Origin: Chryseobacterium sp. 3008163 | GTDB taxonomy: Bacteria; Bacteroidota; Bacteroidia; Flavobacteriales; Weeksellaceae | Assembly: GCF_003669035.1 (NCBI RefSeq) | Contig: NZ_CP033070.1 | Span: 744,001 to 808,000 of the forward strand | Length of the DNA stretch: 64,000 nt | Reading direction: 5' to 3' | In this document: one piece after another, positions 1,154 to 61,964 of the stretch | Position numbering within the stretch: position 1 is the first letter of the stretch | Layout: each line of letters opens with the position of its first letter | The notes under the pieces: model-generated | Databases searched by the model: none | The model's input: only the letters and a program-made list of their open reading frames with translations | Told to the model about the DNA's origin: nothing | Position numbers and translations under genes: made by a program

Positions 1154-2421
1154 ATGTATAAACATTTCCTTTTAATTTTTATCACCATAATTTCAGCTGG
1201 TATGAATCCGGTAAAAGCCTGCACTATATTTTCCTGTTCAAGAGGTGGAGAAACATTCGTTGCGGCTAATGAAGATGACATGACTCCTTTTACAAGAATC
1301 TGGTATAATCCTGCCACTAAGGACCGATACGGATCCATTAGCTTCGGAGCTCCGGATATGCAGTCCGCCGCAGCAATGAACGAATACGGACTATTCTATG
1401 ATTTTGCAGCAGCCAATTACGATTTGAGTAAACTGAACCTAAAAAATCCTTACAAAGGGGATCTGATGTGGGAAATATTAGGAAAATGCAAAAATGTAAA
1501 AGAAGCTATGGTTCTATTGAAAAATATGATTATGCAATATCTGCCAAAGCTTTATTAGCTGACAAAGAAGGAAATTCTATTGTGATTACTCCCGGAGGAA
1601 TCATAGAAAAGAAAGGTGACTTCCAAGTGAATTCAAACTGCAATATGATCAATGGAAAACTCTCATGCAGACGACCTGACATAGCCAATGAAATGCTTGC
1701 TGCTTCCAAGGAAAACAATATTGGGTTTTTAAAAACCATTTTAGATAAAACCCACCAGGAAGGAGAATTGAATACTTTATATTCTACCATCTGCGACCTT
1801 AAAAAGGGAATTATCTACGTCTATCTTTTTCACGACTACAATACAGTATATAAAATTGACTTAAAATCCGAACTCAAAAAGGGCTACCATATTGAAAATC
1901 TGGCTGATCATTTTCCTGCTTCATTTGCCTATGAACATTTCTCTAAGAATCATTCTTTATATCTTAAAGAATCTATTTTTCAGGAAATGATGAATAAAGG
2001 AATAGAAACTACAGTCGACCGATATATTGCAGAAAGCGAAAAATCGGATCCCAAAAATAAAAACCTAGACCCTGCTCTTCTAGAAGTAGCTTTACAGCTG
2101 ATAAAATATTCATGGAACGAGCACAATAATGGCGCCATGTGGGATTATTGGTTCAGCAAGCCCAACGGATATGACATCAAACCATACAAAGATACCCGTC
2201 TGACTTCGGCTGAAAACCTTTTAAAATATCTATCCGCCAAAGAAGAAAAAGATCTCAAGCTACGTAATTTCATGTACGAAATATCGGGTTTTATCAATTT
2301 TACTCAGGGAGATACTGATAAAGCCAAATATTTTTACGAAAAATCTATTTCCAATTCCGATGAAGCCTACCCAATCACTTTATTAAGGGGGAAAGAGATG
2401 TTGAGCAGGTTGCCAAAGTAG
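1154..2421 (+). CDS. Secreted Ntn-hydrolase (linear amide C-N hydrolase/C45 type), frameshifted
   Basis: A signal peptide (residues 1-22) is followed directly by Cys23 in ACTIFSC. An exposed N-terminal Cys is the nucleophile in choloylglycine-hydrolase and C45 acyltransferase-like enzymes, and the following GGETFVAANEDD fits the family's GRNxD region. Substrate unknown. The C-terminal third (about 300-422) is helical and TPR-like. Frame 2 runs to 1558 and frame 1 continues from the same place to 2421. Adding one A to the A5 run at 1520-1524 joins them as LLKKYDYA, a 422-residue protein. The break could be a real inactivating deletion or a sequencing error; nine similar breaks in this window favour error. 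It stands alone between divergent rpsA and a convergent operon. Confidence 0.7.
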
Positions 2422-2571
2422 ATGACAGATAACATTCTTTTTAATTTAGATAATAATTTTACAATTCAATTTCTACAAAATGAGTCTACATTCCCTTGGA
2501 AATCAAAGATTCAACATAGTCAATAACAATAGTTATTGTGTCTGATTAAAAGAATGCCAAACAAGTAATAT

Positions 2572-2608
2572 GGTAAAAAATAAAACGGATGGCATAAAGC
2601 ACATCCGT
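2572..2608 (-). terminator. Rho-independent terminator of the secreted-protein operon
   Basis: Read on the minus strand, ACGGATG pairs with CATCCGT (2585-2591 and 2602-2608), followed by a T-rich tract. It lies just past the stop of the gene ending at 2646. Confidence 0.7.
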
Positions 2609-2645
2609 AACTAAAAACACATATCATGATAAAAATCACTTTTTT

Positions 2646-3479
2646 TTAGTCTAACGATTCTACAATGGTTGTACTTAGGGAGATTCTAGACAAGAAATTA
2701 CTCATATTATCACATGGAGGATTTCCTGAGTTTGAACTATTTGCAATGCCACCATAGATAATCTTTTGCGTGGGACTATTAGTTGTAGAAGCTATATTCC
2801 TTGCCATCACTTTTATTGTATGACTTCCTATCGAAAGATTATTGACTACGCCATTCAAAACAAACTTATGCCAAGAACAGGTAAAATCTTCTCTTTGCTT
2901 GTGATATTTTCGTACCACCACTAGTTGATCATCTACAAAAATACCGATTGCATATTGAAAATATTCACCTACAGATCTATCTATCTGTGCCATGCCTTCT
3001 AACGTAAAAGCAAAAGAATTATTGGCTCTGGTGAAGGTTTTAGAATCTGTGATTCCCAGCGAGGTCCAGTTGGCTATCCCAGTACCTAAAGTGATTGCTC
3101 CAGGTGTAAAACCTGTCACACTAATACCTCCTGCTGAAGAGATAGAACTTGTATTGACCAAATCTAACTGTGACTGAATCTGCTCTTTCGTAAAAAGTGC
3201 ATTCCATTTATTGTCATCAAAATAAGCAAGGGTTTGAGGTAAGCTCGTTGTAGGATTGGTATTAAAAACAATATTTCCGTTTTGAGGTGAAGAAATTGTA
3301 GCAATATCCACATTTGAAGTCAACGGAATTCTTGGTAGTAAAACTCCTTTTTTATCAGAATCTAATTTTAATGCTGCTGTAGCATCTAATATTGGTGTTG
3401 TTCTATCTGTCATCACAACTTGTGAAAAAGACAGATTGGGAATAATTAACAAAACAAATATTTTAAATATATTTTTCAT
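2646..3479 (-). CDS. Secreted protein, third of a paralogous trio
   Basis: A 277-residue protein with a signal peptide ending near residue 19 (LSFSQ). Next comes the motif LKLDSDKKGVLLPRIPL, common near the N-terminus of exported Bacteroidota surface proteins. A second short block (FDDNKWNALF) resembles the YWDGxxW segment of the two upstream paralogs. The C-terminal half (about 115-275) is beta-rich and shares IGIFVDDQLV, NLSIGSHTIKV and a YGG segment with both. No T9SS tail and no lipobox are seen, so its final location is unclear. It starts two bases after the stop of the middle paralog, so the three are surely co-transcribed. Function unknown; a beta-sandwich binding module is a guess. 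Confidence 0.75.
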   Translation of the reverse strand: MKNIFKIFVLLIIPNLSFSQVVMTDRTTPILDATAALKLDSDKKGVLLPRIPLTSNVDIATISSPQNGNIVFNTNPTTSLPQTLAYFDDNKWNALFTKEQIQSQLDLVNTSSISSAGGISVTGFTPGAITLGTGIANWTSLGITDSKTFTRANNSFAFTLEGMAQIDRSVGEYFQYAIGIFVDDQLVVVRKYHKQREDFTCSWHKFVLNGVVNNLSIGSHTIKVMARNIASTTNSPTQKIIYGGIANSSNSGNPPCDNMSNFLSRISLSTTIVESLD

Positions 3480-3481
3480 AA

Positions 3482-8593: not shown

Positions 8594-9489
8594 TTAAGAG
8601 TAATATAAGTCGTCAACATTTGATCTCAAGAACCTCCATGTTGCAACGATTGTACTTAATATTGTGATGAAAATACCAACTCCAAATATCAAAAGAACTA
8701 ACCAGAAATATTGGTTGGTATCTTGTACGAAAGGAGTTTTTATAGTAGTTGTAAAGTAATACCAAAGTCCTGATAATGCAATCAATGCCAATACCGCACC
8801 CAATAAACCAAGAATTAATGCTTCTTTGATGAAAGGTGTTAAAATAAATCGTCTTTTGGCACCTACCAACTGCATGGTTTTGATAATAAATCTTTTTGAG
8901 AATACTTTCAGTCTGATTGAGTTATTAATTAAAACAATAGCAAGAACTAAAAACAGTACACAAAACGCTAAAATCCACTTTAGAATTTTATTTAATTTAT
9001 CGTATATTTTTGAGAATCTGAATCATTTTTTACGTCGATAATTCCGGGAACCGATTTGATTTGCGTAAGAACTGCTCCAATTTTAGTTGAATCTGTATAC
9101 TCCGGTTTTAAGGCTACTTCCACAGAAGCCGGATAAATATCTTCATCAAAAAGTGCTTCTGTATCTATCCCTAGACTTTTTTTGGCTTCAGCTGTAGCCA
9201 TTTTTTTAGAAATATATTTCGTACGTTTTACCGATTCCATTCCTTTGATAACTTCTACGGCAACAGCTTCCTGTTTTGCTATTTTGGCAGAATCTTTATC
9301 GTCGTAATTCTCGTCAAAGTACGCATTTACAACTAGTTGCTCTTTAAGATAGTCGGAATATTTCTGTGCATTGATTAGAATTAAACCCATTAATCCTAAT
9401 AAAAATAACACTAAGGCAATACTTATTACTACAGTAATATTGCTAGACCGAAGCCTTTTCTTATTAAACTCTTCTACAGATTTCGCCAT
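8594..9489 (-). CDS. ftsX: Cell division protein FtsX (frameshift in the sequence)
   Basis: FtsX is the membrane partner of the ATPase FtsE and controls peptidoglycan hydrolases at the septum. The N-terminal part has a cytoplasmic segment, one membrane span (about 20-42) and the extracytoplasmic domain (AYFDENYDD to KSVPGIIDV). The C-terminal part holds three more spans and the family motif MQLVGAKRRFILTPF. The first part stops at 8992 and the second is in another frame. Adding one base to the T5 run at 9007-9011 (A5 on the coding strand) joins them through KIYDKLNKILKW, giving 298 residues, the normal length. The joined gene is almost certainly intact in the cell. It is divergent from rsmA and heads the operon toward uppP and truB. 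Confidence 0.9.
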
Positions 9490-10433: not shown

Positions 10434-12779
10434 TTATTCTCTGTTTTTCAACATAATCCATCCGGCTCTATTCATTTGTACTTTCGACTTCTTGTATTCG
10501 AAATTGAATTTGTACCAATAAGTTGCTGTCGGCAATCTTTTACCAGATATAGTTCCGTCCCAGATTGGTCTTTCTTTTGAGAATTTGAATATTTCTACGC
10601 CATATCTGTCATAAATTGATCCTGTGAAATTATTGAAATCTCTTAGATTACTAAGATCTAAAACATCATTCACACCATCCTGATTTGGAGTAATTACATT
10701 ATTAATTTCAAGTGTAAAGAACTCAACTGCACCATAGCAAGTTGTCCCTTTAATTCTTACCTGAACATTGTACGTCGTATTATCTGTAAGATTTGTAAAT
10801 ACATTTGACTCTTGCCAGTTGATTCCGTCAACAGAATACTCTAAAGTTCCAAATACGTTGTTGATTGAAGGGTTTGTTGCAATTGCTGTTAATGTCCCGT
10901 TATCATAGCTTAAATTCGTAAAGAATGGCGAAGCTGCACCGTGAACTTTCACTGTAAATAATTCCTCACAAATTCCATTATTGATTTTTACTGTATAGAC
11001 TCCTAACTGAGTTGCTGTAATAGTTTGAGTTTCTGCACCAGTATTCCATAAATAAGAGTAGTTAGTTCCCGCGCCTGCATCCAAAAGAATAGTATCACCT
11101 ACACACATTTCAACATCCAGCAAAGGCGTGGTAATAGGTGCAACAGTCTCTACAGTGATTTTTGCTGGCAATAGTGATTTACAGCCTTTCGCTCCTAAAG
11201 CATATACTGTAAATGTGGTGGTTTGATTAACGGTAACAGTTTGTGTGTTTCCGTTTCCTGGGAAGTTATCCCACAAATAAGTAACACCACCATTAGCTGT
11301 AAGCGTAACTGTTTCTCCCGGGCAAACTCTAATCCTTGAAGAAGTTATAGCTGCGATTGGAGTTACCTCTTTTTGCAAAGTCAACTCTATTGTTTTGCTA
11401 CAGAAACCACCGTCTGATACTACCACATATAAAATCTGACCATCTGCACCATTATAGTTTGCTATATTGGTGATAAAAGCATTGTTTTGAGCCGCTGCAT
11501 CAGCCTGATTCACATAGAATCTGAACGTTGCATTTGGAGTAGGGCTTATAAGGGGTTTTGCATTATTTAAATCAAATGTAGTAATGTCTGGTGTGCTACA
11601 CAATAAGAAAGTAGCATCTTGAGCTAATGGTGTAAATCCACCATTAATTTTTATAGTTGCTGATCCCGGACAAGGATTTCCAGGTACACTTACTTCAATT
11701 TTATAATTTCCTGGCTGTATTGCCGTAATTGTATTTGTGTTTGCTCCTGGTATTGCAGTTCCGTTAAAAAACCATTGATATAGTAAATTTGGACCACTTG
11801 TAGAAGCTGTAATTACTTGTGGTACATTATCACAGACATTGATTTCTGCTGGTAACTGAGCTCCTGCCGGATCTAATAGACTTACTCCTATATCAAATGA
11901 ACCAGCTTCTAAAAAAACAGCAGAACCAAAGCTAGAGTCTCTTGCATCAGCAACAACCATTTTAATATGATAAGATTGTCCTGGGATTACCGTAGCTTCA
12001 GCTGTAAGTGGCGCAGTAGTACCGTTATAGTTCGTAGCATTTGGAGCTAATGACCCAAAATACTGCCCATTTACAGGACCACACGCAAAACTTGCCGGGA
12101 GAATATTTGGAACAGAAACAGGTCCTGCACCACCCGGTAGAACTGCTAAATTTGTATAGGTAGAACCTGGAGTATTAGGCTTCAGCAATAAAGCGAAAGC
12201 ATCATCAAATTGTAATGGTGGACAAGGATAGTTTCCTTCATATTCTTCAGATGCAAAAATGTATCTAAACTTCATTTGAGAGCTAGTGGGTACAAAATCA
12301 AATTCTAAAATTGCAGCGTTAGAAAGTTGCGTTGTTACACCAACAGCAGCAGCAAGATCAGGATCACTTCCTCCAGTATTACCATCACTTAAAGTAAAAT
12401 TCTCTAAAGCATTACCAGCCTTTCTTGCATAACCCGTTGTTAAAACAATACCTTCTAAAAAAGGAAAAGTTGAAGTAGTTTTATTGAAATAACCCCAAAA
12501 CCTGTCATTATTGGTAACGGGTTGATTAGGACTTACTGTAACGTTAGAAATATTTGGAGTACCACAAGAACCAGATGTACCTACCAAAACATCTGTAACC
12601 AATTGTGTAGGTGTAAAATTACTTTCAGGATAAGGAGGAACATTTACATCTATATAGTCACCTGCTTTTGCATTTGCAGATAGAGTTTCTTTGACAGGTT
12701 TTCTTGACTGATTTACCTGTGAAAAAAGATGATTAGAATTTAATATAAATAATGAAAACAACAGTAGATATCTCTTCAT
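10434..12779 (-). CDS. Choice-of-anchor L adhesin-like protein with type-B T9SS tail (copy 1)
   Basis: A 781-residue secreted protein with a signal peptide (residues 1-21, ending LFSQ). Residues about 40-300 form a choice-of-anchor L domain, with IVLTTGYARKAGN, IFASEEYEGNYPCP, FALLLKPN and AVLPGGAGPVSV. Two or three Ig-like/PKD-like beta modules follow (FYVNQADA, then VTLTANGGVTYLW and ILLDAGAGTNYSYLW). The last about 90 residues (NVITPNQDGVNDVLDLSNL to GWIMLKN) are the CHU_C / gliding-associated C-terminal domain, the type-B T9SS sorting signal. It should be exported and held at the cell surface. Ligand unknown. It is nearly the same size as the copy ending at 16660, and the three copies lie head to tail. 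Confidence 0.88.
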   Translation of the reverse strand: MKRYLLLFSLFILNSNHLFSQVNQSRKPVKETLSANAKAGDYIDVNVPPYPESNFTPTQLVTDVLVGTSGSCGTPNISNVTVSPNQPVTNNDRFWGYFNKTTSTFPFLEGIVLTTGYARKAGNALENFTLSDGNTGGSDPDLAAAVGVTTQLSNAAILEFDFVPTSSQMKFRYIFASEEYEGNYPCPPLQFDDAFALLLKPNTPGSTYTNLAVLPGGAGPVSVPNILPASFACGPVNGQYFGSLAPNATNYNGTTAPLTAEATVIPGQSYHIKMVVADARDSSFGSAVFLEAGSFDIGVSLLDPAGAQLPAEINVCDNVPQVITASTSGPNLLYQWFFNGTAIPGANTNTITAIQPGNYKIEVSVPGNPCPGSATIKINGGFTPLAQDATFLLCSTPDITTFDLNNAKPLISPTPNATFRFYVNQADAAAQNNAFITNIANYNGADGQILYVVVSDGGFCSKTIELTLQKEVTPIAAITSSRIRVCPGETVTLTANGGVTYLWDNFPGNGNTQTVTVNQTTTFTVYALGAKGCKSLLPAKITVETVAPITTPLLDVEMCVGDTILLDAGAGTNYSYLWNTGAETQTITATQLGVYTVKINNGICEELFTVKVHGAASPFFTNLSYDNGTLTAIATNPSINNVFGTLEYSVDGINWQESNVFTNLTDNTTYNVQVRIKGTTCYGAVEFFTLEINNVITPNQDGVNDVLDLSNLRDFNNFTGSIYDRYGVEIFKFSKERPIWDGTISGKRLPTATYWYKFNFEYKKSKVQMNRAGWIMLKNRE

Positions 12780-12795
12780 AATAATTTTGTTTCAA

Positions 12796-12803
12796 CAAAT
12801 TTA
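12796..12803 (-). promoter_or_regulatory. -7 box of adhesin copy 1
   Basis: TAAATTTG on the minus strand, exactly 16 bases before the ATG at 12779. The other two adhesin copies have the same spacing. Confidence 0.5.
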
Positions 12804-12847
12804 GTTTTTTTTCACATAAACATCATTAATAACTCATTTTTTTAACA

Positions 12848-12877
12848 TAAAAAAGTCTTCCACTTGGAAGACTTTAA
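12848..12877 (-). terminator. Terminator of adhesin copy 2
   Basis: AAAGTCTTCC pairs with GGAAGACTTT, followed on the minus strand by a T run. It lies directly after the stop at 12885. Confidence 0.8.
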
Positions 12878-12884
12878 ATTTTAT

Positions 12885-15800
12885 TTAATTTCTGTTTTTA
12901 AGTAAAATCCATCCGGATCTTAATTCTAGTTTTTTACTTGCAGGGTTTTCCCACTGTACCCTATACCAATAGGTTGCCGTAGGAAGATTAATAGTTTTTA
13001 AGGAACCATTCCACATTACGTTTGATTTATCTGCCTTAAATATTTCAGCTCCATATCTGTCAAAAATAGATGCCGCAAAGTTTTTATAATTGCTTACCCC
13101 CGAAAAGTCTATGAAATCATTGACGCCATCGCTATTCGGAGTGATTGCATTGCTCATAACGAAAGTAAAGAAACTTAATGTATTGCCACATTTTGCATCT
13201 TTTACTTTTACCATTAGAGTAAGATTAGTATTACTTAATACATTATAAAAGATGTTTGAAGGTTGCCATGTTATACCTCCGTCAATAGAATACTCTAATG
13301 TCCCACCAGTAGGATTGGTAGCTGATATTGTCAGTACATTATTTTCAAATACTACATTGGTAAATTGTGGAAGATCTGGGTTAATCAACTGTGCCGTAAA
13401 CAATCTAGAGCATGTTCCGTTATCAATTGTCACGGAATAAGATCCAGGAATATTTGTAGAGATCGTCTGAGTAGTAGCTCCCGTGCTCCAAAGATACGTG
13501 TAGTTAGGTCCTGCACCAGCATCTAAAATCCCGGTATCACCAGCACATGCATACACATCTTTTAATGTTGAAACAATGGCAGGTACAACCACGATTTGGA
13601 CTGTAGCCGGAGTGTTAGACACACAGCCGTTTCCACCTAAAGCAAATACTGAATAACTTGTGGTAACAGCAGGAGTAACAATTTGTGTATTTCCATGTCC
13701 GGGAAGGCCTATCCAGTTGTAAGTAAATCCTCCGCCTGCAGTTAAAGTAACAGATTCACCCGCACAAATTTTAATTTTCGAAGCAACTAATGTTGCAGTT
13801 GGCGGACCTACAACAATATTAATTACTGCAGGATTAGCAGAAATACAACCATTCGCACCTACTGCAAATACAGTATATGTTGTGTTGTTAGCCGGAGAAA
13901 CTACTTGTGTATTTCCATTTCCGGGAAGACCATTACCCCAGTTATAAGTTGCACCACCCGAAGCCGTTAAAGTAACCGATTCTCCCGGACAAATTTGTTG
14001 AAAAGTTGAAGCTAAATTTGCAATCGGTAGAACTTTATCTTCTACCACAGTAACTGTCGAAGTAAAAGTACATGTTAAGTTGGCAGGTTGTGTATTATTT
14101 GTTACTGTTAAAGTATATGTTCCAGCAGCATTTACCACAGGTGTCAGAGTCGTTGCTCCTGATACGATATTTCCACCTGTAGTCGTCCAAGCAATAGTAG
14201 AGCCTGCAGGAATTACAGATGCTGAAGCATTTAAAGTGACCTGAGCTGTAGTACATGTGATTGTTTGAGGTGCAGCAATCGTTAATGTGGTAGTCGCAGT
14301 AGTTAATAATTGTAAATTAACAACATACTTACAACCTCCATTACTTACTGAAACATAAATTGTCTGATTTCCTGTACTCGGAAATGCAGTAGGCACTGTT
14401 ATATTACTTGTATTACCAGCTATTGCATCTGCCTGATTGACATAATATGTAAAAGTAACACCAGTAGCTGTAGTTATCTGACCTTGGGCAGAAGTTAAAT
14501 CATATATTATATTTCCTTGCTGATAACATTTTAAAAGACTTGCATTCTGAGCCGTGAAAGGTTGAGAAACTTGTATTGTCAGCGTTGCAGCAGTAGTTGA
14601 CACACATCCGTTGGCACCAACTGCTGTGACTGTATACGTTGTATTAGCTGTAGGAGAAACTGTTTGAGTAGCTCCGTTTCCTGGCAAACCTCCTCCCCAA
14701 TTATAGGTTGCACCACCAGAAGCAGTTAAAGTAATGGTTTCACCGGCGCAGATAGAAATTTTGCTTGCAGTGAGCCCAGTTGTAGGAGGCGTACTATTCC
14801 CAACAACAGTTACATTGGCAACAGCGGTACATGTGACATTACCCGCAAAGGTATTTGAAATTGTTAATGTATAAGTTCCCGGAGCATTCACAACCGGATT
14901 TAATGTTGTTCCTCCCGAGACAATGTTCCCTCCCGTAGTCGTCCATGCAAATGTAGAAGTTGTAGGATATATAGAAGCAGAAGCATTCAGGGTAATTTGT
15001 GTATTTGTACACGTTAATGCCGTAGGCGCAGCAATAGTTGCGGTAATTTCGGGGGCTTTCACGAGTTGCAGCTCTGCAACCTTTGAGCAAAATCCATTTT
15101 TTACTAAAACATAAATTGTTTGGCCTCCCGCACTTGAAAAAGTGGTGGGTGCTGCAATTGTATTGGCATTTCCAGCGTTTGCATCAGCTTGATTCAAATA
15201 GTACGAAAATGTAGCTCCCGGAGTTGTACTAATTGAAGCTTGCGCTGATGTTAAATTAAATATTGCATTTCCGGCTGCGTAGCAAGTTGTTAGGGTAGCA
15301 TTTTGTACCGTTGGTGAAGTTCCTCCAACAACAGTAATCGTTGCTTTACCCGGACATGAATTTCCGGGAAGTGTAACCTCTACCGAATAAACGCCTGGTG
15401 CTACGGCAGTATACGAAGAACTGGTTGCTCCAGGAATCGCATTAGTTCCTAAAAACCATTGATATGTGGCACCCGGAATCTGTACCGACGCAGTGAAGGT
15501 CTGTGGAGCATTATCACAAACATTGATAGAAGCTGGAAGTTGTACGCCTCCAGGCCCCAGAATCTGAACACCTATATCGAAAGATCCCGCCTCTAAAAAA
15601 ACAGCAGAATCAAATCTAAAATCCTGATAATCAGCAATAACCATTTTAAAATGATATGTTTGCCCTGGAATTACGGTAGCCTTTGCAGTTAGTGGTACTG
15701 TACGCCCACTGAAATTAGTTTGAATTGCTGTAGTATTGTATCCTCCAAAATATGATGCATTAATCGCACCACAAGTAAGAACTGTATTGTCAAATTGTAC

Positions 15801-16490: not shown

Positions 16491-16506
16491 TTTGTATTAT
16501 TTTTAA

Positions 16507-16646: not shown

Positions 16647-16659
16647 GTATTAGGGAATT

Positions 16660-20454: not shown

Positions 20455-21368
20455 TTAGATTTTTACAACTTCTAAAGCCTTAGGTAAAAAAGTATTTGGA
20501 AAAACCGTTCTTGCCTCATCAGTAAATACCGTCAAATCACCATATCTGTTAGAAAAATGACCTAAAATCAATTTACCAACTTCCGCTTGCCTCGCAATTC
20601 TGGCTGCTTCTAAAGCTGTTGTGTGGCCGGTATAATCTGCCATTTCTTTCAAATCGTGTAGAAAAGTAGACTCGTGATACAATACCGTTACGTTTTTAAT
20701 AATCGGAATGACAGATTCTAAATATCTGGTATCACTGCAAAAAGCGTAAGAAACGGGCGGTGCAGGTTCTGTGGTCAAAATTTCATTTTTAAGAATATAT
20801 CCGTCACTCAATTCAAAATCTTTACCTGCTTTCAAATTGTGATAATCGCAGGTTTCAATTTCATTATATTTTGAAATTTCCTGCATATTAAGATGCCTGT
20901 CTTTTTGTTTTTCCTTAAAAAGATAACCGTTACAGTAAATTCTGTGATCTAATGGGATCGTATAGACCTCTACTCTATTGTCTTCGTAAATTTTCTCGGA
21001 ATAATCTTTATCAAGTTCATGATAAACGATTTCAAAACCACGATGGGTTTCCGTAATGGTAAAAATGGTTTCCAGCATTTTTTTTATGCCTTTCGGGCCA
21101 TAAACATGCAACGGCACATCTCTTCCCAATAAACGAAAAGACGCAATCAAACCCGGCAAACCAAAACAGTGATCACCATGAAGATGCGAGATAAATATAT
21201 GATTGATTTTGAAAATCTTGCTTTTGCTTTTCTCAGCTGCACCTGCGTTCCTTCACCACAATCGATCAGAAAACATCGCTCTTCCATCTCAAGAAGCTGC
21301 GAAGTGGGCGATGTATTAACGGTAGGAATTGCTGAATTAAAGCCTAAAATGGTTAAATAAGTACTCAA
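20455..21368 (-). CDS. rnz: Ribonuclease Z (frameshift in the sequence)
   Basis: RNase Z is a metallo-beta-lactamase-fold enzyme that trims tRNA 3' ends. The N-terminus (LTILGFNSAIPTVNTSPTSQ, FLIDCGEGTQVQL) is canonical. The zinc motif HLHGDH is present in the DNA but falls out of frame: the first frame ends at 21147 and a second runs from 21159 to 20455 (GLPGLIASFRLLGRD, later YHESTF and GHFSNRY). Adding one base to the T4 run at 21207-21210 restores ARFSKINHIFISHLHGDH and a 304-residue protein of normal length. Since RNase Z is usually needed, a sequencing error is the best reading. It overlaps or abuts the TIGR02757 gene downstream. Confidence 0.9.
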
Positions 21369-37041: not shown

Positions 37042-37817
37042 TTAAAACTTGATGATAGAATTCATTTTTTCAGTTTCTTCGTTTACCAACTCGTCGTCAA
37101 CAAGAATTTTTCCCGAATGTTCATCGATGATGATTTTCTTTCTCTGAGCAATTTCCATTTGCTTTTGTGGTGGAATTGTGAAGAAAGATCCTTTCGGCGC
37201 TCCTCTTTCAAGACCTACTACTGCAAGACCTGTAGAAGAGTTTGTTCTGATTCTGTGATAAGATGCCAATAATCTCTCGTCGATTTTAGAAGCAAATTCG
37301 TCAGATTTTGTGATCAGATAATCTTCTTCTTTTTGAGTTTCAGAAATCAAACCTTCCAATTCTTCTTTTTGAATTTTAGGTGGTTTTTAAGATTTTCGAT
37401 TTTAGTATTCAACTCATTCAGAGTTTCTTCTTTGTGACCGATTTTAGCTCCAAATTCTTTGATTCTTTTGTCAGAAAGCTGAATTTCAAGTTCTTGATAT
37501 TCAATTTCTTTTCCTAAAGCTTCAAATTCTTTATTGTTTCTTACGTTATCTTGTTGAGATTTGTATTTTTCGATTAAAGATTTCGCATGATTGATAACTT
37601 CATTTTTGTTGCTGATCTGATCATTCTGCTCTTTAATCTCTGCATGAAATTTTTCCGCTCTTTTTTCTAGGCCTTCAATCTCGATTTCAAGATCTTCAAC
37701 TTCGATTGGCAATTCTCCTCTTGTATTTCGGATCTCGTCCAATCTTGAATCGATGATTTGCAAATCGTATAAAGCTCTTAATTTTTCTTCGACTGAAATT
37801 TCGGTGATTTTTGCCAT
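37042..37817 (-). CDS. C4-zinc-ribbon family coiled-coil protein (frameshift in the sequence)
   Basis: The family (zf-RING_7, CT398-like) has a long coiled-coil hairpin and a C-terminal zinc ribbon. Residues about 10-190 are heptad-rich (LRALYDLQIIDSRLDEIRN, KSLIEKYKSQQDNVRNNKEF). The C-terminal part (ERGAPKGSFFTIPPQKQMEI, IIIDEHSGKILVDDEL) aligns with the ribbon, but none of its four cysteines is present. The first frame ends at 37347 and a second goes on to 37042. One base added to the T5 run at 37366-37370 joins them through FKKEELEGL, for 258 residues. It starts two bases after the Nif3-like gene; the pair is conserved in the phylum. Function unknown. Confidence 0.85.
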
Positions 37818-37819: not shown

Positions 37820-38916
37820 CTATAGGAAATAATTTACTGGGTTTGTTTTTTCACTAGATTTTAAGATTGCAAATGTACTAAATTTTTGTGATAAAATTTC
37901 AAATAATTGCTGACTTACCAATTGCTCAGATTCATAATGTCCAATATCGCAAATCAGCATTTTAGATTCTGCTAAAAAATAATCGTGGTATTTGAGATCT
38001 CCCGTAAGATAGGCGTCACATCTTTTTGAGAGTGCAGACTTTATTCCGCTTGCCCCGGAACCACCCAAAACGCCTACTCTTTTGATTTTCTTTTCATTGA
38101 AATTAGAATGTTTGATGATATTCAAATTGAATTTATCTTTCACAAAATCCAAAAACTCTTTTTCATCCATTTCAGTTTCAAACTCGCCATACATTCCCAA
38201 ACCAGAATATTGATTTTCGTTTTCAAGCTGATAAATCTGATGTGCAACTTCTTCGTAAGGATGTGCAGATTTCATTGCAGCAACAATTTGATTTTGTTTA
38301 AAAGATTCAAAAATCACTGAAACCATATCTTCTTCCGCATTTTCACGTACATTTTGCTGTCCGGAAAAAGGATCAGAACCTTCAATAGGTCTGAACGTTC
38401 CTTTTCCTTCAATCTTAAAACTGCACTCGTCATAAAATCCGATGTTTCCGGCTCCGGCAGCGAAAAGGGCTTCTTTTAATGTTCCAGAATAGTCTTTCGG
38501 AACGTAAACATTTAATTGCTTTAAATTATTTTTTTAGGTTGAAGAATTTTTAAGTTTTTTAATCCCAAAAGATTGCAAATTCCGGCATTTACTCCATAAA
38601 AATCATTATCGAAAGCGGTGTGAATCGCATAGATGGCAACTTTATTTTCGATTGCTTTTAAAACTGCTCTTTCGACATAATTTTTTCCGGTCAAAGATTT
38701 TAAACCTGAAAAAATAATAGGATGAAAGCAAACAATCAAGTTACAGTTCTTGTGAATTGCTTCATCAACCACATTTTCTAAAGCATCGTGACATACAAGA
38801 ATTCCTGATACATTTCTATCCGCCAAACCACATAGAAGTCCCACGTTGTCAAAGTCTTCAGCCTGAGGCATTGCGATGTATTTTTCTATCTCTGCAATTA
38901 CTTTTTGTATTGTCAT
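37820..38916 (-). CDS. Nif3-like dinuclear metal centre protein (frameshift in the sequence)
   Basis: Nif3/DUF34 proteins form hexamers with a two-metal site; they may act as GTP cyclohydrolase-like or nucleotide hydrolases, but the function is unsettled. The N-terminal part has DNVGLLCG, VCHDALENVVDEAI, CFHPIIFSGL and AIHTAFDN, and the C-terminal part has GDLKYHDYFLAE and DIGHYESE, the metal-binding halves. A PII-like insert lies between (FESFKQNQIVAAMKSAHPYEE). The N-terminal frame ends at 38521. One base added to the T7 run at 38529-38535 restores PKKNNLKQLNVYVPKDYSG and a 365-residue protein, the usual length. It is co-transcribed with the zinc-ribbon-like gene. Confidence 0.9.
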
Positions 38917-48516: not shown

Positions 48517-51500
48517 TTAGTTAAGATAAAACTCATATTTATTCAACAATTGAATTTCTTTAATCAAATCTCCATTCAAATCAACAGAATATCTCATTGA
48601 TTGTAATTCCATATCTGAATTTTCTTCTGAATTTTTGATTAAAAATTTGAATTTTTGATTTCCTTTATTTTGGTCGAGAACATTTCTGAAAAACTCTAAA
48701 TCTTCTCTCCTGAAATCCATAACATCCATGACCAGCGAAATACTTTTTGCAAACTTTTCAAACGCTTCCTGAAGTTCGATTACATCAACTACATTGACGA
48801 AAACACGCCCGTCTTTTACCTGAGCAAATTTTATTTTTAATATAACAAAACGTTGCACTTCCAATTTCTCTTTCAACCTCATATAATCACGATCTCCTAA
48901 TCTGAAAGAATACGAACCCGAATAATCTTCCAAAGTTAAAAACGCCACTTTTTCACCACTTTTAAAACCATCTTTCACTACATATTCCGTTATCAAACCA
49001 GCAACAGTATATTCTTTTCCGCTACCGCCATTTTCTCTTTCTTTCTGAAGGGTTTTCCAGTCTTTCTTTTTTTCTTCAAACAATTCTGCAGGTTTATTAG
49101 CAAAAGCCTGTTCTTTATAAGCATCAACCTCATCGAGGTTTAAAAATCCAAAGTTCCCTTTTGGCTCTGCTTTTTTTGTAACTTCTTCTATGATTTCTTC
49201 TTCACCGGCAACAATATCATCTGAAATAATTTCTGTAATATCTACTGCTTCATCTTTATCGTCTGCTTCCAAAATCGGAACAACTTCATCGATTACTACT
49301 TTTACCTCATCTTCTTTTTCCAAAACCGCTTTTTTAGAAAGCTTACCCTGCATAAACTGATAATGATATTTAAATTCATCGAGCGGATGCGCAGAAAGAT
49401 AGAACCCAATAATTTCTTTTTCTTTATTTAATTTGTGCATGTTTGGCCATTCCGGACAAGGCAATAATTTGGGTTGCTCAATTTGAACTTCTTCAGCAAA
49501 ATCAGCAAAAAGAGAATTTTCCATCTCATTTTTACTTTCCTGAAAACTCTGTCCGTATCTGATTAATCGCTCAAGATTTGTTCTTCCCGCCATATCAATA
49601 TCAAAATACTGACCTCTGTGATACATATTAAACTCATCAAAAGCTCCAGCCAAAACCAAACTTTCTGCTACTCTTTTATTCATTTGAGACGGTAAGATTC
49701 TTTCAAAAAAATCATAAATATTTTTAAATCTTCCGTTTGTTCTTTCTTTCGTAATCCCTTCACTCGGTCCTTCTCCGATTCCTTTTATTGCCCCCAATCC
49801 AAAGCGGATCTGCCCTTTTTCATTTACCGAAAATTTATAGTGAGATTCATTCACATCCGGTCCCAAAACATCAACGCCAATACTTTTACAATCTTCCATG
49901 AACATGGTAATCGATTCTGTATTGTTAATGTTGTTGCTCATTACACTCGCCATATATTCTGCGGGATAATTTGCCTTTAAGTATGCCGTTTGATAAGCAA
50001 TCAGAGCATAACAGGTTGAGTGTGATTTATTGAAGGCATATTCTGCAAAGGCTTTCCAGTCATTCCATATTTTTTCTAAAGGTCCTTCATCAAGATTATT
50101 TTTTCTACCGCCTTCGATGAATTTCGGGTACATTTTATTCAGAACTTCAATCTGCTTTTTACCCATCGCTTTCCTCAAAGTATCAGCTTCACCTTTTGTG
50201 AAATTGGCTAATTTTTGAGACAAAAGCATTACCTGCTCCTGATAAACTGTAATTCCGTAGGTTTCTTTTAAATATTCTTCCGTTTCCGGTAAGTCATAAA
50301 TAATTTCTTCAATTCCGTGCTTTCTATTGATAAAATTTGGAATATACTTGATGGGGCCAGGACGATACAATGCGTTCATGGCAATCAAATCGGCAAAAAC
50401 AGTTGGCTTCAGTTCACGCATATACTTTTGCATTCCCGGACTTTCATATTGGAAAATCCCTACTGTTCTACCCTCCTTAAACAACTGATAAGTTTTAGCA
50501 TCATCCAGCGGAATCTCATCAGGATTAATATCAATATTATGCCTTTGCTTTACCAGTTTTAATGCATCTTTAATAATTGTCAGTGTTCTCAGACCCAAAA
50601 AGTCCATTTTCAGAAGCCCTGCGCTTTCCGCCACCGAGTTGTCAAACTGAGAAACCAAAATATCGGCATCTTTTGCCGCAATCGTTACCGGAACCAGATT
50701 ACTCACATCTTCTGGCGTAATAATCACTCCACAAGCATGAATTCCGGTGTTTCTGATACAACCTTCCATCTTTTTGGCACTTGCCAAAACATTGTGACGG
50801 TTATCATCAGGTGTATTAAGAACATACTTCATCTCGTCGACAAGCTGCTGATCTTCTGGTTTTAGCTTATCATATTTAGATAAAGCTTTCGCAATATTCA
50901 TCCCCGGACTTGGAGGAATCAATTTCGCAATATTATTGGTATCAGGAATTGGAAGATCTAAAACTCTTCCAGCATCTTTAATAGCCGATTTTCCACCCAA
51001 AACCGAATACGTGATAATTTGCGCAACCTGATTTTTCCCATATTTCTCAACTACCCACTTGATAATTTTATCACGACCTTCATCGTCAAAATCAATATCA
51101 ATATCGGGCATTGAAATCCTTTCCGGATTCAGGAATCTCTCAAATAGCAAATCATATTTAATAGGATCAACATTGGTAATTCCTGTGCAGTAAGCAACTA
51201 CAGAACCTGCTGCAGAACCACGACCGGGGCCAACCCAAACCCCCATATTTCGGGCTTCATTACAAAAATCCTGAACAATCAAGAAGTACCCCGGATAACC
51301 GGTGTTGGCAACTACTTCAAGCTCGAAATCAAGACGCTCTTTGATTTCATCTGTAATTCCGGTTTCAACATATCTTTTTTTTGCGCCTTCGTAAGTTAAA
51401 TGCGTTAAATACGCCATCTCGCCCCGTTTACCTCCATCAACTTCATCCTCTTCATGTAGAAATTCCTCAGGAATGTCAAATTTTGGCAAGAGAACATCTC

Positions 51501-53185
51501 TTTTTAAAGTATAAGGACTAAATTTTGCCGTAAACTCTTCGTAGGCATCAAACGCATCAGGATAATTCAGAAAAGTTTCCTTGATTTCGTGAGCATTTTT
51601 AATGTAATATTCTCCTCCAGCTAAGCCTCTTCTCTTCCCAAAGCCCTTACCAACGGGCGTTGTCAGTTTTTCACCATCTTTTATACAGCTTACAATATCC
51701 TGAATATTAGAATCGTCTTTATTGGTATAATAGGTTTGATTTTGTGCTAAAATTTTAACGTTATATTTATCTGCAAAATGTAAGAGAACATCATTCAAAT
51801 GCTCCTCTTCAGGAAGTTTATGATTTTGAATCTGAACATAAAAATCATCTTCAAAAGTTTCTTTCCACCATTTGAAAAGCTCTTCTCCTTTTTGCTCACC
51901 AGTATTTAAAATCGCATCTGGAATATCTCCGTTGATTCCTGAAGTAAGAGCGATTAATCCTTCTTTATATTCAGCAATCAATTCACGGCTGATCCTCGGA
52001 ACTCCGAAATAAAATCCTTTAAGAAAACCTATACTTGAAAGTTTTGCCAAATTTTTATATCCGTTAAAATCTTTTGCCAGCAAAACAACCTGCGTTCTTC
52101 TATCGGGATCATCTTTGGTAAATTGTTTTTGCTCATAACGGTCTGAAATATAAAATTCACAACCTACGACAGGAATTAAAGACTCAGAAACCGGTTCCAT
52201 TTCGTTAAATTCAGTTCCGTTTTCTTCCGCTTCCTGTTTTTTAGCTAAATATTCTTTATGTTTTTTGAACGGTCAGAATTGGTAGACTCAACAGCAGAAA
52301 CAAATTTGAAAGCTCCCATCATATTCCCCAAATCCACCATTCCAACTGCAGGAAATTGATCTTCTGTAGCCTTGTTGATTAAATCATTAATGCTCGAAGT
52401 CGCCGTTAATGTTGAAAAAACACTTTTATTATCGAAATTGAAATATCTTCCTAATTCAATATCATCAATACTGCCGACATCGGATTGCTTTTTCTTATTA
52501 TTAAAATCTGCAACCTGCCTTCTGATTATAATTCCAAAAGGTTTTATCGGATCTGGATGCAACGTTTTGAAATATGCCAACTGATCTTCCGATGTCTTCA
52601 AAACTTCTGCAGGAATAATTCCGATACGCATCATTTCGAAGAAAACCTGAGCCGTGGCATTTACGTCGGCTGCTGCATTATGCGCTTCATCGAATTTGTG
52701 CCCATACAATTTTTCATACAATTCTTCCAATTTTGGAGACTTGTATCTTCCTCCTCTTCCACCGCCAAGCTGACAATAATCTGTTCCCAGAATCATCGTG
52801 TCCGCTTTCGGTTTTTCCTGAAGATTGTCTTGAATATTTTTTCTGAAAATTCTGCTCCAACGATGTTGTAATCGAATTCCACATTATGTCCGGAAACTAC
52901 TCTGACTTTTTCTAAAACTTTGGCAAATTCCTTTAAAATCTCTTCAAGATCACGACCTTCTTCATTGGCAATTTTAGTTGTAATTCCGTGAATTCTTGCG
53001 GCGTTAAATGGTATATCATAACCTTCCGGTTTAATTATATAATCTTGATTTTCAAGCAAATTACCATCATCATCATGCAATTGCCAGGCAATCTGAACCA
53101 TTCTTGGCCAATTGTCTGAATCTGAAAGCGGTGCGTTGAAATTTTTCGGTAAACCTGTGGTTTCTGTGTCAAAAACTAAATACAT
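48517..53185 (-). CDS. dnaE: DNA polymerase III alpha subunit with fused exonuclease (two frameshifts in the sequence)
   Basis: The replicative DNA polymerase. Joined, it has about 1556 residues. An N-terminal DEDDh proofreading exonuclease (about 1-185) shows FDTETTGLP, HNVEFDYNIVGAEF and HNAAADVNATAQVF. The PHP domain follows but its metal motif is degraded: the usual HxHxxYS is FNFDNKSVFS, and DHG is DLG in VDLGNMMG. The polymerase has PDIDIDFDD and LLKMDFLGL with the catalytic Asp residues, then HhH and OB domains. Frames end at 52793 and 52245. One base added to the A4 run at 52846-52849 (giving EFFRKNIQDNLQEKPKADT) and one to the T6 run at 52261-52266 (giving DRSKKHKEYLAKKQ) repair it. 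It is essential, so the breaks are taken as errors. Confidence 0.93.
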
Positions 53186-53392
53186 GTATTTTTTCTAACT
53201 TTTTAATGAGAAAATAGTCAGTAAAGTTACTGCATTTTTTTGTTTTTTAATGAGTTTTTGGAAATTGATATTAACTATAAACTGAATCATTTTTCCTGAA
53301 ATAATGTTTAAAACTTTGTTATTATAAATATTTAATTAACTAACATTCAAATAATTGATTCAACTACCTATCAATTGTTAGGCTTTTATTTT

Positions 53393-53419
53393 TTGAAATC
53401 CAAATTATGTTTATCTTTG
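53393..53419 (+). promoter_or_regulatory. Promoter of the E1 dehydrogenase gene
   Basis: TATCTTTG (53412-53419) matches TAnnTTTG, with TTG (53393-53395) 16 bases upstream. The ATG at 53426 follows only six bases later, so the mRNA should be almost leaderless. Confidence 0.65.
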
Positions 53420-53425
53420 CTTTCT

Positions 53426-55498
53426 ATGGAAAATACACTTCACGAAAAAGTTTCTCAGGATATTTTACTTAAGGCTTATAATCATATGATGCTTGCAAAA
53501 GCAATGGCCGACATCTATGAGGAAAACAGAAATGTTTGCAAATATGTACATAGTACTTCTAGAGGTCACGAAGCAATTCAATTGGCAACGGCTTATCAGT
53601 TAAAAAAAGAAGACTGGGTTTCTCCATATTACAGAGATGAAAGTATTTTGTTGGGAATTGGTTTTGAGCCTTATCAATTGATGCTTCAATTGTTGGCTAA
53701 AGCTGATGATCCTTTTTCTGGTGGAAGATCGTATTATTCTCACCCTTCGAGCAGAAACGAAAATATGCCGAAGATCATTCACCAAAGTTCCGCGACCGGA
53801 ATGCAGACTATTCCTACGACTGGTGTTGCACAAGGAATCAAATATATTCAGGATTTTAATTTAGAACAATTTGAAAATAATCCTGTCGTAATCTGCAGTT
53901 TGGGAGATAATTCTGTTACGGAAGGTGAAGTAAGTGAAGCATTTCAGTTTGCTGCTTTACACCAACTTCCTATTATTTTTCTCGTTCAGGACAACGAATG
54001 GGGAATTTCTGTAACCAAAGAAGAAGCGAGAACTTGTGACGCTTATGACTTCGTAGCCGGGTTTGAAGGTTTAGGAAGAATGAGAGTTGACGGAACCGAT
54101 TTCGTTGAAAGTTTTGACGTAATGAAAAAAGCTGTTGATTTTGTGAGAACCGAAAGAAAGCCTTTGGTTGTTTGCGCAAAAACAGTGTTAATCGGTCATC
54201 ATACTTCGGGAGTGAGAAGAGAATTCTATAGAGATGAAGATGATTTAACCAAGCACAGAGCAAAAGATCCGGGAGAAATCCTTAGAAATCAATTGCTGGA
54301 GTCTGGTAGCGATGAAGAATTATTAAAGCAAATCACAAAAAAGGCAAGATTAGAAGCTGAAGAAGCATTTGAAAGAGCTCAAAAAGCTGAAGACCCGAAA
54401 CCTGAAACTGTGATGCAGCATATTTTCGCACCGACTCCGATCACCGAAGAAGTGGGAACACGTGAACCTGAAGGTGGAGAAAAAATCGTAATGGTTGATG
54501 CAGCAATTCACGCCATCCAGGAAATTATGTGGAAACATCCTGAAGCTTTATTGTACGGACAGGACGTGGGTGAAAGAATCGGTGGAGTTTTCCGTGAGAC
54601 GGTGACTTTGGGTAAAAAATTCGGAAGCAAAAGAGTTTTCAACACCGCTATTCAGGAAGCTTATATCATCGGTTCAACAACGGGAATGAGTGCAGTTGGT
54701 TTAAAACCAATCGTTGAGGTTCAGTTTGCCGATTATATTTATCCTGGAATCAATCAGCTGATTACGGAGATTTCAAAATCAAATTATTTAAGCAACGGCA
54801 AGTTTCCTGTAAGCAATATCATCAGAGTTCCGATTGGAGCTTACGGCGGCGGCGGACCTTATCACAGCGGAAGTGTGGAAAGCATTTTAGCGAATATTAA
54901 AGGGATAAAAATCGCTTATCCAAGTAACGCAGCTGATTTTAAAGGTTTATTGAAAGCGGCTTATTACGACCCGAATCCGGTTGTGATGCTGGAGCATAAA
55001 GGTTTGTATTGGAGCAAAGTTCCGGGAACTGAAGATGCAAAAACCATCGAACCTGCAGAAGATTACATCTTACCTTTCGGAAAAGGAAAAGTAGTTATTG
55101 AAGCTGACGAAAACGAAGTTAAAAAAGGAAACACTGTTGTCGTTATCACTTACGGAATGGGAGTTTACTGGGCAAAAGAAGCCGTGAAAAATTTTGGAGG
55201 TAAAGTGGAAGTAATCGATTTGAGAACCATTATTCCTTTGGATGAAGAATTGGTTTTTGAACGAGTAAAAGCACACGGAAAATGTATCGTTCTGACAGAA
55301 GAACAATTGAATAATTCTTTTGCAGAAGCTTTTGCACACCGTATTTCTAAAAACTGCTTTAAATATCTTGATGCTCCGGTTGAAACGATGGGATCGCTTG
55401 ATACTCCGGCAGTTCCGATTAATTTAATTTTAGAAAAGGAAATGCTTCCCAACGCTGAAAAGCTCTCGAAAAAAATCGACGAAATGTTGAAATATTAA
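53426..55498 (+). CDS. Fused alpha/beta E1 component of a branched-chain or 2-oxo acid dehydrogenase
   Basis: This thiamine-diphosphate enzyme decarboxylates a 2-oxo acid and passes the acyl group to E2 lipoate. Alpha and beta subunits are fused in 690 residues. The alpha half (1-330) has the ThDP motif GDNSVTEGEVSEA (160-172) and a closing NEW segment (VQDNEWGISVT). The beta half (about 348-690) has YGQDVGERIGGVFRET, VEVQFADYIYPG, RVPIGAYGGGGPYHSGS and PSNAADFKGLL. Fused E1 genes of this kind are usual in Bacteroidota; 2-oxoisovalerate (leucine/valine breakdown) is the likely substrate, but pyruvate is not excluded. ATG 53426 is preferred over the longer frame from 53375, which crosses the promoter. 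A terminator follows. Confidence 0.9.
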   Translation: MENTLHEKVSQDILLKAYNHMMLAKAMADIYEENRNVCKYVHSTSRGHEAIQLATAYQLKKEDWVSPYYRDESILLGIGFEPYQLMLQLLAKADDPFSGGRSYYSHPSSRNENMPKIIHQSSATGMQTIPTTGVAQGIKYIQDFNLEQFENNPVVICSLGDNSVTEGEVSEAFQFAALHQLPIIFLVQDNEWGISVTKEEARTCDAYDFVAGFEGLGRMRVDGTDFVESFDVMKKAVDFVRTERKPLVVCAKTVLIGHHTSGVRREFYRDEDDLTKHRAKDPGEILRNQLLESGSDEELLKQITKKARLEAEEAFERAQKAEDPKPETVMQHIFAPTPITEEVGTREPEGGEKIVMVDAAIHAIQEIMWKHPEALLYGQDVGERIGGVFRETVTLGKKFGSKRVFNTAIQEAYIIGSTTGMSAVGLKPIVEVQFADYIYPGINQLITEISKSNYLSNGKFPVSNIIRVPIGAYGGGGPYHSGSVESILANIKGIKIAYPSNAADFKGLLKAAYYDPNPVVMLEHKGLYWSKVPGTEDAKTIEPAEDYILPFGKGKVVIEADENEVKKGNTVVVITYGMGVYWAKEAVKNFGGKVEVIDLRTIIPLDEELVFERVKAHGKCIVLTEEQLNNSFAEAFAHRISKNCFKYLDAPVETMGSLDTPAVPINLILEKEMLPNAEKLSKKIDEMLKY

Positions 55499-58515: not shown

Positions 58516-59519
58516 TTAATTTTTATGAAAATGTTTCGGGAAAGCATTTTCAGGTTTCATTCTGAAAACATTTAGCAAAATCCACGATTTTAAAAAACCG
58601 TAGCCATAAGAAAACATTTGAATATAAGTCGAAATAACCGCCATTCCTGCAATTGCGATATTCTTAGTGACAATCGTGGCATGTATCAAAACCATGAAAG
58701 TATAGAGTCCGTAAAAAGCCAGAATAATTCCTCGTCCAAGAATAAAATATTCGATAAAACCTAAAACATATCCCAGCAGAAACAAAGTTGGAAAAGCAAA
58801 AGAGATTTTCACATATTTCGGATGTCTTTGGTTTAAAATAGGTCTTGCGCAACCAAATTGATACACCTGTTTTGAAAACTTACCGAAATCGACACGACGT
58901 TTATGATACACTGCAATATCATCAAAAATGCAGTTGAAAAACCATTTTCCCAAAGCGTCATCGATAAATCCGGATCTTCACCAATTCTCATTTCGGAAAA
59001 ACCTCCTACTTTCTCAAAAACTTCCTTCTTCACTCCCATATTGAAACTTCTGGGCTGAAATTTTGAAACTGCTTTTTTATTCCCTCTGATTCCGCCAGTC
59101 GTAAAAACGGAAGTCATAGAGTAAGAAATTGCTTTTTGCATCAGATTAAAGCCTTTATGTGCCTTGTCTGCACCACCAAAAGCATCACAAGGAATCGTGA
59201 GAATATCTTTTTTGATGTTTTGAATATAATCTTTCTCCACAATCACATCGCTGTCTACAAAAACAAGCCATTCATTCGAAGCTCTTTTTGAACCGTAATT
59301 TCTTGATAAACCCGGACCTGAATTATCTTTTCTAAAATATTTAATATCTAAAATTCCATCAAAATTCTTGATTGTCGGTTTCAAATCTATGAGAGAACCA
59401 TCATCGACAATAATGATTTCAAAAGCTTTATCCGTTTGAAAAGTCAATGAATTGAGAAGTTCGAAAAGCTCATCTTTTCGGTTAAATATGGCGACAACAA
59501 TGGAAATGGTAGGATTCAA
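58516..59519 (-). CDS. Family 2 glycosyltransferase, membrane-linked (frameshift in the sequence)
   Basis: A GT-A fold transferase using a nucleotide sugar, probably for surface polysaccharide or glycolipid. It starts at TTG 59519, since a stop lies just upstream in frame. The N-terminal domain has VVAIFNRKDEL, IIIVDDGS (Asp39, Asp40) and the DxD motif FVDSDV (Asp89, Asp91), then MGVKKEVFEKVGGFSE and GEDPDLSMTLWENG. The C-terminal part has about two membrane spans (FLLGYVLGFIEYF, ILAFYGLYTFMVLIHATIV). The first frame leaves the family sequence at 58924-58928; one base added to that A5 run restores STAFFDDIAVYHKRRVDFGK and a 334-residue protein. Acceptor and sugar are unknown. Confidence 0.88.
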
Positions 59520-59530: not shown

Positions 59531-59931
59531 TTAAATACTAAACAAATTTGATTTAAAATACACATACAAAACAAGTGCAATCATTAATAAAATGAACGTT
59601 CCGCTGAAAAGCAGAAACTCAAATACACTCCTGAAATAATAAAGACCTAAGTGAAATAGAGAAAAAAACACAATAAAGAAAGCACTAAACCTATCAGAAC
59701 ACAAACCAAAATGCTCTGTACAAAATCTTTATCTGGTAAAGGATTTTTAAATATAATAAAAAACAAAATGGAGGCAATTAGCAAAAAGCCTCCACTCCAC
59801 AATTTTACTGTGTATTTTGATTTTTTTCTGAATTTTTTGCCGTTATTATTAGAATCTGACGAAGTATAATCTGTCAAAAGACAAATGAAATCGACGATAC
59901 CTTCAATAATCTCAAAAATATTCAGGGACAT
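59531..59931 (-). CDS. Small multi-pass membrane protein (frameshift in the sequence)
   Basis: The readable frame (59647-59931) gives 94 residues with two spans and stops early. Adding one base to the A7 run at 59662-59668 lets the frame go on through FHLGLYYFRSVFEFLLF to a TAA at 59531, adding a further span (FILLMIALVLYVYF). The repaired protein has 133 residues, an N-terminal helix (LNIFEIIEGIVDFICLLTD), a basic loop (GKKFRKKSKY) and about four spans. This repair matches the other homopolymer breaks here, but no homolog is recognised, so it is less sure. It starts two bases before the RNA methyltransferase gene ends and is probably co-transcribed with it. Function unknown. Confidence 0.6.
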
Positions 59932-59933
59932 TT

Positions 59934-61103: not shown

Positions 61104-61227
61104 AAGTTATAATTAAAAGATTTAACTATTTAAAAATTAAAGAATTAGCGTTTCATTTTATTAATAAATTGAATTTTTCAATACCTTAATATTTAAAATA
61201 CTTTTCTTTTAACACCGCAAATTTAGT

Positions 61228-61235
61228 TATTTTTG
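61228..61235 (+). promoter_or_regulatory. -7 box of the SAM methyltransferase gene
   Basis: TATTTTTG matches TAnnTTTG and ends four bases before the ATG at 61240, implying a leaderless or nearly leaderless mRNA. Confidence 0.5.
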
Positions 61236-61239
61236 CATT

Positions 61240-61964
61240 ATGGAATGGTTTGAATCTTGGTTTGATACGCCTTATTATCATTTGCTTTACAGTAACAGAG
61301 ACTATACGGAAGCAGAAAACTTTATCACAAAACTCACTCAGGAGCTTCAGCTGCCTCAATCTTCAAAATAATTGACCTTGCGTGCGGAAAAGGAAGACAC
61401 TCTGTTTTTCTTAATAAATTGGGCTATGATGTGCTTGGTTTAGACCTTTCTCAGCAAAGTATTGAGTTTGACAAGCAGTTTGAAAATGAAGGTTTAACTT
61501 TCAAAGTTCATGATATGAGAAATCCTATCGATTCTGAACCTGTAAATGCAGTTTTCAATCTTTTTACCAGCTTTGGGTATTTTGATAACGAGACAGATGA
61601 CAGAAATGTTTTTAAATCAGTTTACAATGCCTTAAAACCGGAAGGTTTTTTTGTTCTAGATTATCTGAATGAAGAATTTGTAACAAGAACTTTGGTTCCG
61701 GAAACTACGATTCACCGTGAAGGAATTGATTTTCATATTTCTAAAAAAATTGAAGACAGACACATCATTAAAGACATTCGTTTTGAGATTGATGGAGAGC
61801 CCAAGCATTTTTTCGAAAAGGTAAAACTTCATACTTTAGAAACCATTGAAAACTACGCTTCAGAATGTGGATTTGAAAGAGTGAAAATTTGGGGAGATTA
61901 TCAGCTGAATGATTTTGAAAAGGAAATTTCACCACGTTGCATCAATTTGTTTAAGAAAAAGTAA
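61240..61964 (+). CDS. Class I SAM-dependent methyltransferase (frameshift in the sequence)
   Basis: The frame opens at ATG 61240 (MEWFESWFDTPYYHLLYSNR) and stops early at 61371. A second frame covers the rest to 61964. One base added to the A4 run at 61365-61368 joins them as SSKIIDLACGKGRHSVFLN, the SAM-binding motif I of small-molecule methyltransferases. The protein then has 241 residues with GYDVLGLDLSQQSIEF (motif II) and FNLFTSFGYFDNETDD (motif IV). Substrate unknown; such proteins are common and unassigned. The stop overlaps the ATG of the ZIP gene (TAATG), so the two are translationally coupled. Confidence 0.85.

Follow-up and report, generated by a model that had tools for sequence, protein, structure and literature searches.

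Ten apparent single-base frameshifts interrupt nine genes within a 64,000-nucleotide stretch of the Chryseobacterium sp. 3008163 genome (the window; positions 744001-808000 of a single contig of 4,558,636 bases with 35% GC), and the question they raise is whether the breaks belong to the organism or to the record. A first-pass annotation had assigned each of them to a short run of A or T and had favored systematic under-calling of homopolymers over gene decay or programmed frameshifting. We compared the window sites with open reading frames from 27 relative sequences, which served as reference frames, and called breaks by frame tracking on blastn alignments; this procedure replaced a tblastn-based finder that had recovered only 3 of the window sites. 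The closest relative genome compared, G011, is syntenic with much of the window, at 79-88% DNA identity in most long syntenic pieces (extremes 72 and 98%).

From at least 589 loci in named genomes the best 80 were retained; among these, the nearest dnaE relatives are Chryseobacterium records, with up to 91% protein identity. In three records, two named as Chryseobacterium gleum MAGs and one as a Limnohabitans MAG (L024, L032 and L051), dnaE is only 58% identical to that of the window, the level of Flavobacterium and other genera within this set, and these records are probably misnamed or misbinned. Two further features of the window emerged from the alignments. Among neighboring large open reading frames at 10434-19005 and 44483-48220 (781, 1201 and 781 aa), each also aligns with relatives of the others, at about 64-69% DNA identity; offset matches around 45756-46852 suggest internal repeats within a 1245-aa open reading frame carrying fn3, Ig_7 and Por_Secre_tail domains.

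All ten runs were found where they had been reported, the count of ten breaks in nine genes was correct, and comparison with relatives, the check that had been proposed, called a frame break at 10 of 10 sites (Table 1; sites are numbered 1 to 10 in coordinate order). The relatives that call a site, 2-20 sequences per site, are intact there. The proposal that one added base repairs each break holds for 75 of 79 calls, which were net -1; the other four differ in size, with three net -4 calls at site 2 and, at site 6, one from a distant relative with nine gaps and a net change of +14. Site 9 is the weakest of the ten. It lies in a poorly conserved 130-aa protein in which a Pfam scan gave no match, and no long alignment from G002, G003 or G010 spans it.

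Table 1. Split genes of the window, with the position of each break and the number of relative sequences that call it.
Gene	Extent	Strand	Break	Calling sequences	Remarks
Split gene without Pfam match	1154..2421	+	1520-1524	7	ORFs 1154-1558 and 1468-2421 overlap, in different frames
ftsX	8594..9489 (low end approximate)	-	9007-9011	4	
rnz (ribonuclease Z)	20455..21368 (high end approximate)	-	21207-21210	4	
CdsZ-like zinc-ribbon protein gene	37042..37817	-	37366-37370	5	two ORFs, in different frames
NIF3/DUF34 gene	37820..38916	-	38529-38535	5	
dnaE (Pol III alpha, N-terminal exonuclease domain)	48517..53185	-	52261-52266; 52846-52849	20; 20	
Family 2 glycosyltransferase gene	58516..59519	-	58924-58928	7	
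Small protein gene	59550..59931 (ends approximate)	-	near 59662-59668	2	G001 and G011 call net -1, with several gaps
SAM-dependent methyltransferase gene	61240..61964 (low end approximate)	+	61365-61368	5	

Domain matches fall on the separate pieces of several of these genes. The two pieces of the NIF3/DUF34 gene match positions 1-128 and 128-256 of the PF01784 profile, and the intact gene matches TIGR00486 above its cut-off. FtsX_ECD is found in the first piece of ftsX, with the FtsX permease domain also present in the intact G011 gene; PF00535 is found both in the first piece of the glycosyltransferase gene and in its intact G011 counterpart; and Methyltransf_31/11/25 match the second piece of the methyltransferase gene. 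The intact G011 gene matches ribonuclease Z (TIGR02651) above cut-off for rnz and NF047363 below cut-off for the CdsZ-like gene. Motifs that the first-pass annotation had cited as restored by repair do adjoin the breaks in rnz (HLHGDH, in the second frame and closely following the break), the methyltransferase gene (DLACGKGRH, just downstream) and the glycosyltransferase gene (FDDIAVYH). At site 1, the seven calling relatives (G004, G005, G030, G025, G009, G007 and G022) have an open frame of 422-474 codons; neither the pieces of this gene nor its G030 counterpart had a Pfam match.

In dnaE, each of the two breaks was called by 20 of 20 dnaE sequences, which represent 19 genomes because G001 entered twice, and the open frame is 1251 codons here against 1558-1595 in 11 same-genus genomes. 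The Pol III alpha of this clade is about 1555 aa long (1555 aa in G011), with an RNase_T exonuclease domain fused before the PHP domain. Gene fission into an exonuclease and a polymerase was considered and ruled out, as the breaks lie inside domains, cutting the PHP domain (profile positions 5-53 and 56-164) and the RNase_T domain (1-109 of 164), and the pieces are thus not natural separate proteins.

The same method gave a measure of the chance level. Applied to the orthologous stretch of other genomes it returned 0 (G002), 2 (G003), 5 (G010) and 0 (G001) raw events, against 9 in the window itself, where site 1 has no orthologue in that reference. One of the two G003 events is a clean -1; the other, and the five in G010, have several gaps, involve several bases or fall where similarity is low. 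An additional window event near 53607 was called by G003 alone and is more plausibly explained by a break in that genome. G003, which is from the same genus, also has a split mutS and a one-base break in its orthologue of window 53375-55498 (C2:3164625-3167176 and L103), and may carry similar errors.

If the breaks reflect a systematic fault, more split genes should lie beyond the window, as had been forecast. The window and 54 further stretches of 20 kb, together 1.14 Mb or about one quarter of the Chryseobacterium sp. 3008163 genome, were surveyed against 889 kb of G011. Coding sequence totaling 473,650 nt was aligned with intact G011 open reading frames; as G011 is another species, some of the events may represent natural divergence. 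Events were dropped if fewer than 60 nt aligned on a side, if the net change exceeded 2, or if the reference frame was not the longer one. This left 55 of 73 raw breaks, distributed over 44 genes that include housekeeping ones, and 46 of the 55 lie outside the window, as the forecast had it. Single-base loss dominates, which an under-call artefact requires: 53 breaks are net -1 and 2 are net +2, so that the frame changes in the same direction in 55 of 55. The 18 dropped events comprise 8 net -1, 4 net +1, 4 net +2, 1 net +4 and 1 net +5. A mirror search for breaks in G011 (359,856 nt) kept 7 of 37 raw events, four of them net -1 and one each +1, +2 and -2, and all seven have one flank of only 61-141 nt. 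Flanks of at least 150 nt on both sides were present for 37 of the 55 kept breaks and for 0 of the 7 in the mirror search. The kept set consists of 50 events of a first set and five added later (413978, 418405, 3519298, 3526053 and 3526233), which are weaker and lie in poorly conserved stretches; 803677, 2520131, 2519690 and 695368 are weak members of the first 50, and event 2569600 was called in both search directions.

Measured against a different species and not against reads, the break rate is about 1.2 per 10 kb of coding DNA, which extrapolates to a total of about 340-620 breaks per genome if 85-90% is coding. The window contributes 9 of the 50 first-set events in 46,940 nt, a density not significantly different from that elsewhere (p=0.11).

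We then related the breaks to the runs in which they occur. Expressed per 1000 coding runs, A/T runs are broken at rates of about 0.02 (length 1-2), 0.04 (3), 0.6 (4), 2.5 (5), 4.1 (6), 8.2 (7) and 9.4 (8); these rates are relative only, as they were computed over every coding run in the 764 kb sampled. This climb with run length is again what an under-call artefact requires. The observation that every break lies in an A/T run is true of the ten, and it is a composition effect of a 35% GC genome. The window holds 1665 A/T and 73 G/C runs of at least 4, which gives a probability of 0.65 that all ten breaks fall in A/T runs. Among 46 of 50 events that could be classified, 36 are in A/T and 10 in G/C, and for runs of at least 4 there are 31 A/T events per 19,121 A/T runs against 3 G/C events per 741 G/C runs. 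G/C runs of this length are thus about 26 times rarer and, in these small numbers, broken at least as often per run, which makes the A/T pattern one of composition. Similarly, a restriction to runs of 4-7 holds for the window ten and does not extend to the survey, where 12 of the 46 events that could be classified were assigned to runs no longer than 3. Relative to G011 there is only a slight deficit of long A/T runs (309 of 32,988 runs of at least 4 are 8 or longer here, against 280 of 24,825 there), too small to count.

Runs of A and runs of T are typical places for slippage, and the position of the breaks in such runs is what programmed frameshifting or transcriptional slippage, by which full proteins would be made from the shorter DNA, has in its favor. 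Such a site should be conserved, whereas the calling relatives are intact at all ten; 44 genes would have to be involved; and of the 46 events that could be classified, 26 fall in A/T runs only 4-6 long and 12, as already mentioned, in runs of at most 3. We regard this explanation as extremely improbable.

The identity of the broken genes bears on whether the breaks could be real. Intact G011 counterparts were scanned for 38 of the 44 broken genes, together with the G030 counterpart of the site 1 gene, and 28 of the 38 match some NCBIfam or Pfam model. The list includes mutL, a Clp-type ATPase, argB, an argD-like gene, menD, msrA and ftsX, as well as murF-alr (2 breaks, at residues 50 and 258 of 815), rplU (residue 76 of 125), secDF (residue 543 of 969), an ftsW/rodA-type gene (residue 143 of 413) and rnz (residue 54 of 304). 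Judging from model bacteria, these last five should be indispensable. The argument from essential genes, first made for dnaE, ftsX and rnz, stands for rnz and others and is weaker than it appears for dnaE, where a single open piece (48517-52200) still holds all the polymerase modules and both breaks are upstream of them. It is strongest for murF-alr, rplU and secDF, whose breaks fall inside conserved protein. The gene ftsZ has three breaks (residues 394, 460 and 538 of 635), all beyond the FtsZ match at residues 17-331; they lie within 431 bases (genome 2542145-2542575), in a C-terminal extension. That the breaks in dnaE spare the polymerase modules and those in ftsZ lie beyond the FtsZ match counts against an artefact.

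Ordinary gene decay, in which the strain would have acquired many recent pseudogenes, is compatible with intact copies in relatives and with the fact that several broken genes (argB, the argD-like gene, msrA and the glycosyltransferase gene) are dispensable in principle. Decay would be expected to yield insertions, deletions and stops and to spare essential genes, whereas here there is a single frame direction, there are few stops, and housekeeping genes are broken. The broken genes are also still under constraint on both sides of the breaks, with a third-position excess of 5.7 downstream and 4.4 upstream, against 6.2 in intact genes. There is next to no chance, in our estimate, that decay accounts for these breaks.

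The mutL gene is itself split in two frames, at residue 81 of 593 (genome 2553085-2554859), and is whole in 11 other genomes compared and in G011. A real mismatch-repair mutator therefore had to be weighed, in which loss of mutL would have allowed replication slippage to shorten runs genome-wide and truly inactivate genes. The run-length trend fits this as well, and does not discriminate error from slippage, because the homopolymer indel rate of mutL/mutS mutators rises exponentially with length, according to the part of PMC3764201 drawn on here. Several observations argue against it. The mutL break shows the same -1 signature as the others, mutS is whole in Chryseobacterium sp. 3008163, and murF-alr, rplU and secDF, which should not be losable, are broken. 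A mutator is expected to gain bases as well as lose them, and the excerpted text of PMC8510543 describes gains in A/T runs for mismatch-repair-defective B. subtilis; no net +1 is present among the 55 kept breaks. Of the four among the dropped events, three have a flank of 30-38 nt and one lies where this genome has the longer frame.

Base substitutions provide a second means of distinguishing the two. In mismatch-repair-minus E. coli, 30,061 substitutions were recorded against 5,324 indels, as given in the same excerpt of PMC8510543, and at that ratio 55 frame breaks should be accompanied by about 6 nonsense mutations (if all changes are transitions) to about 16 (if all changes are equally likely). 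A strict scan of 130,408 aligned codons gave 6 in-frame stop columns. Five of these occur in a single open reading frame that is itself aligned out of frame, and the sixth lies in a gene that also carries a kept break; in the reverse direction, 128,582 codons yielded 3. At most 1 credible nonsense mutation thus compares with the 6-16 expected (P=0.02 and 3e-6), a test that is good and not perfect, as the reference is another species. A looser count (13 here, 20 in reverse) was dominated by misaligned codons and was discarded in favor of the strict one. We consider a mutator very unlikely. A combined account, in which the short runs are real, MutL has been lost, and the cell survives through RNA-polymerase or ribosome slippage that makes enough MurF, L21, SecDF and DnaE, we regard as barely credible.

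Break density is uneven along the genome. The dnaA gene is at 618 kb, and the region around it (504001-868000, counted outside the window) has 7 breaks in 178,496 nt, against 34 in 208,262 nt at 2.27-2.67 Mb (2268001-2668000, about 1.7-2 Mb away; p=1e-4). Run content, compared between these two regions, does not account for the difference. The unevenness counts against an artefact, as a uniform error would not produce it, though read depth could; higher depth near the origin is possibly one reason for the lower density near dnaA. The window, about 125-190 kb from dnaA, is nevertheless off this trend.

Taken together, these comparisons indicate that the ten breaks are very probably consensus errors in the assembled record and not biological features, and that the cell itself most likely carries the split genes whole. 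The first-pass reading of a systematic under-call is borne out by the single frame direction of 55 of 55 breaks, the rise of the rate with run length, the breakage of genes of an essential type and the intact frames of relatives. Its rejection of decay and of programmed shifts likewise agrees with the constraint retained, the paucity of nonsense mutations and the ten sites that are intact in the calling relatives. A base-caller or consensus step would shorten short homopolymer runs, and some mixed spots, by one base, and would do so more often in longer runs and in every stretch of the genome that was sampled. The most likely source is long reads, of the nanopore type, assembled without polishing by accurate reads. 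The assembly has a contamination figure of 2.57, against rounded values of 0-2 in 11 same-genus genomes; this figure may stem from the same breaks, as split marker genes can count twice.

This is an ordinary quality fault and not new biology, and it matters little as biology. It could nonetheless mislead users who draw on the record to infer protein lengths, the loss of genes or a mutator phenotype; taken at face value, the split mutL would suggest a mutator strain.

Two kinds of known system resemble the pattern described here. The mutS/mutL hypermutators, as described in the excerpts of PMC3764201 and PMC8510543, share with it homopolymer indels at a rate that rises with length, and mutL is broken here; unlike them, this genome has no kept insertion and almost no nonsense mutation, and housekeeping genes are broken. 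The second kind is the bacterial assembly made from long reads only. In the portion of PMC12007338 drawn on, the Kastor nanopore assembly of a 59% GC genome has deletions that peak after runs of 4-5, mostly of A and T, and in that of PMC9262707, which compares R9.4.1 with R10.4, homopolymer indels cause frameshifts in nanopore consensus sequences that lack short-read polishing. Our rate differs from those in the cited portions of these reports in being measured against a different species and not against reads, and that the platform here was nanopore is our inference. In other respects the resemblance to the assemblies in these parts of PMC12007338 and PMC9262707 is close: single-base deletions, mostly in runs of about 4-5 or more, with A and T prominent, split genes throughout the genome.
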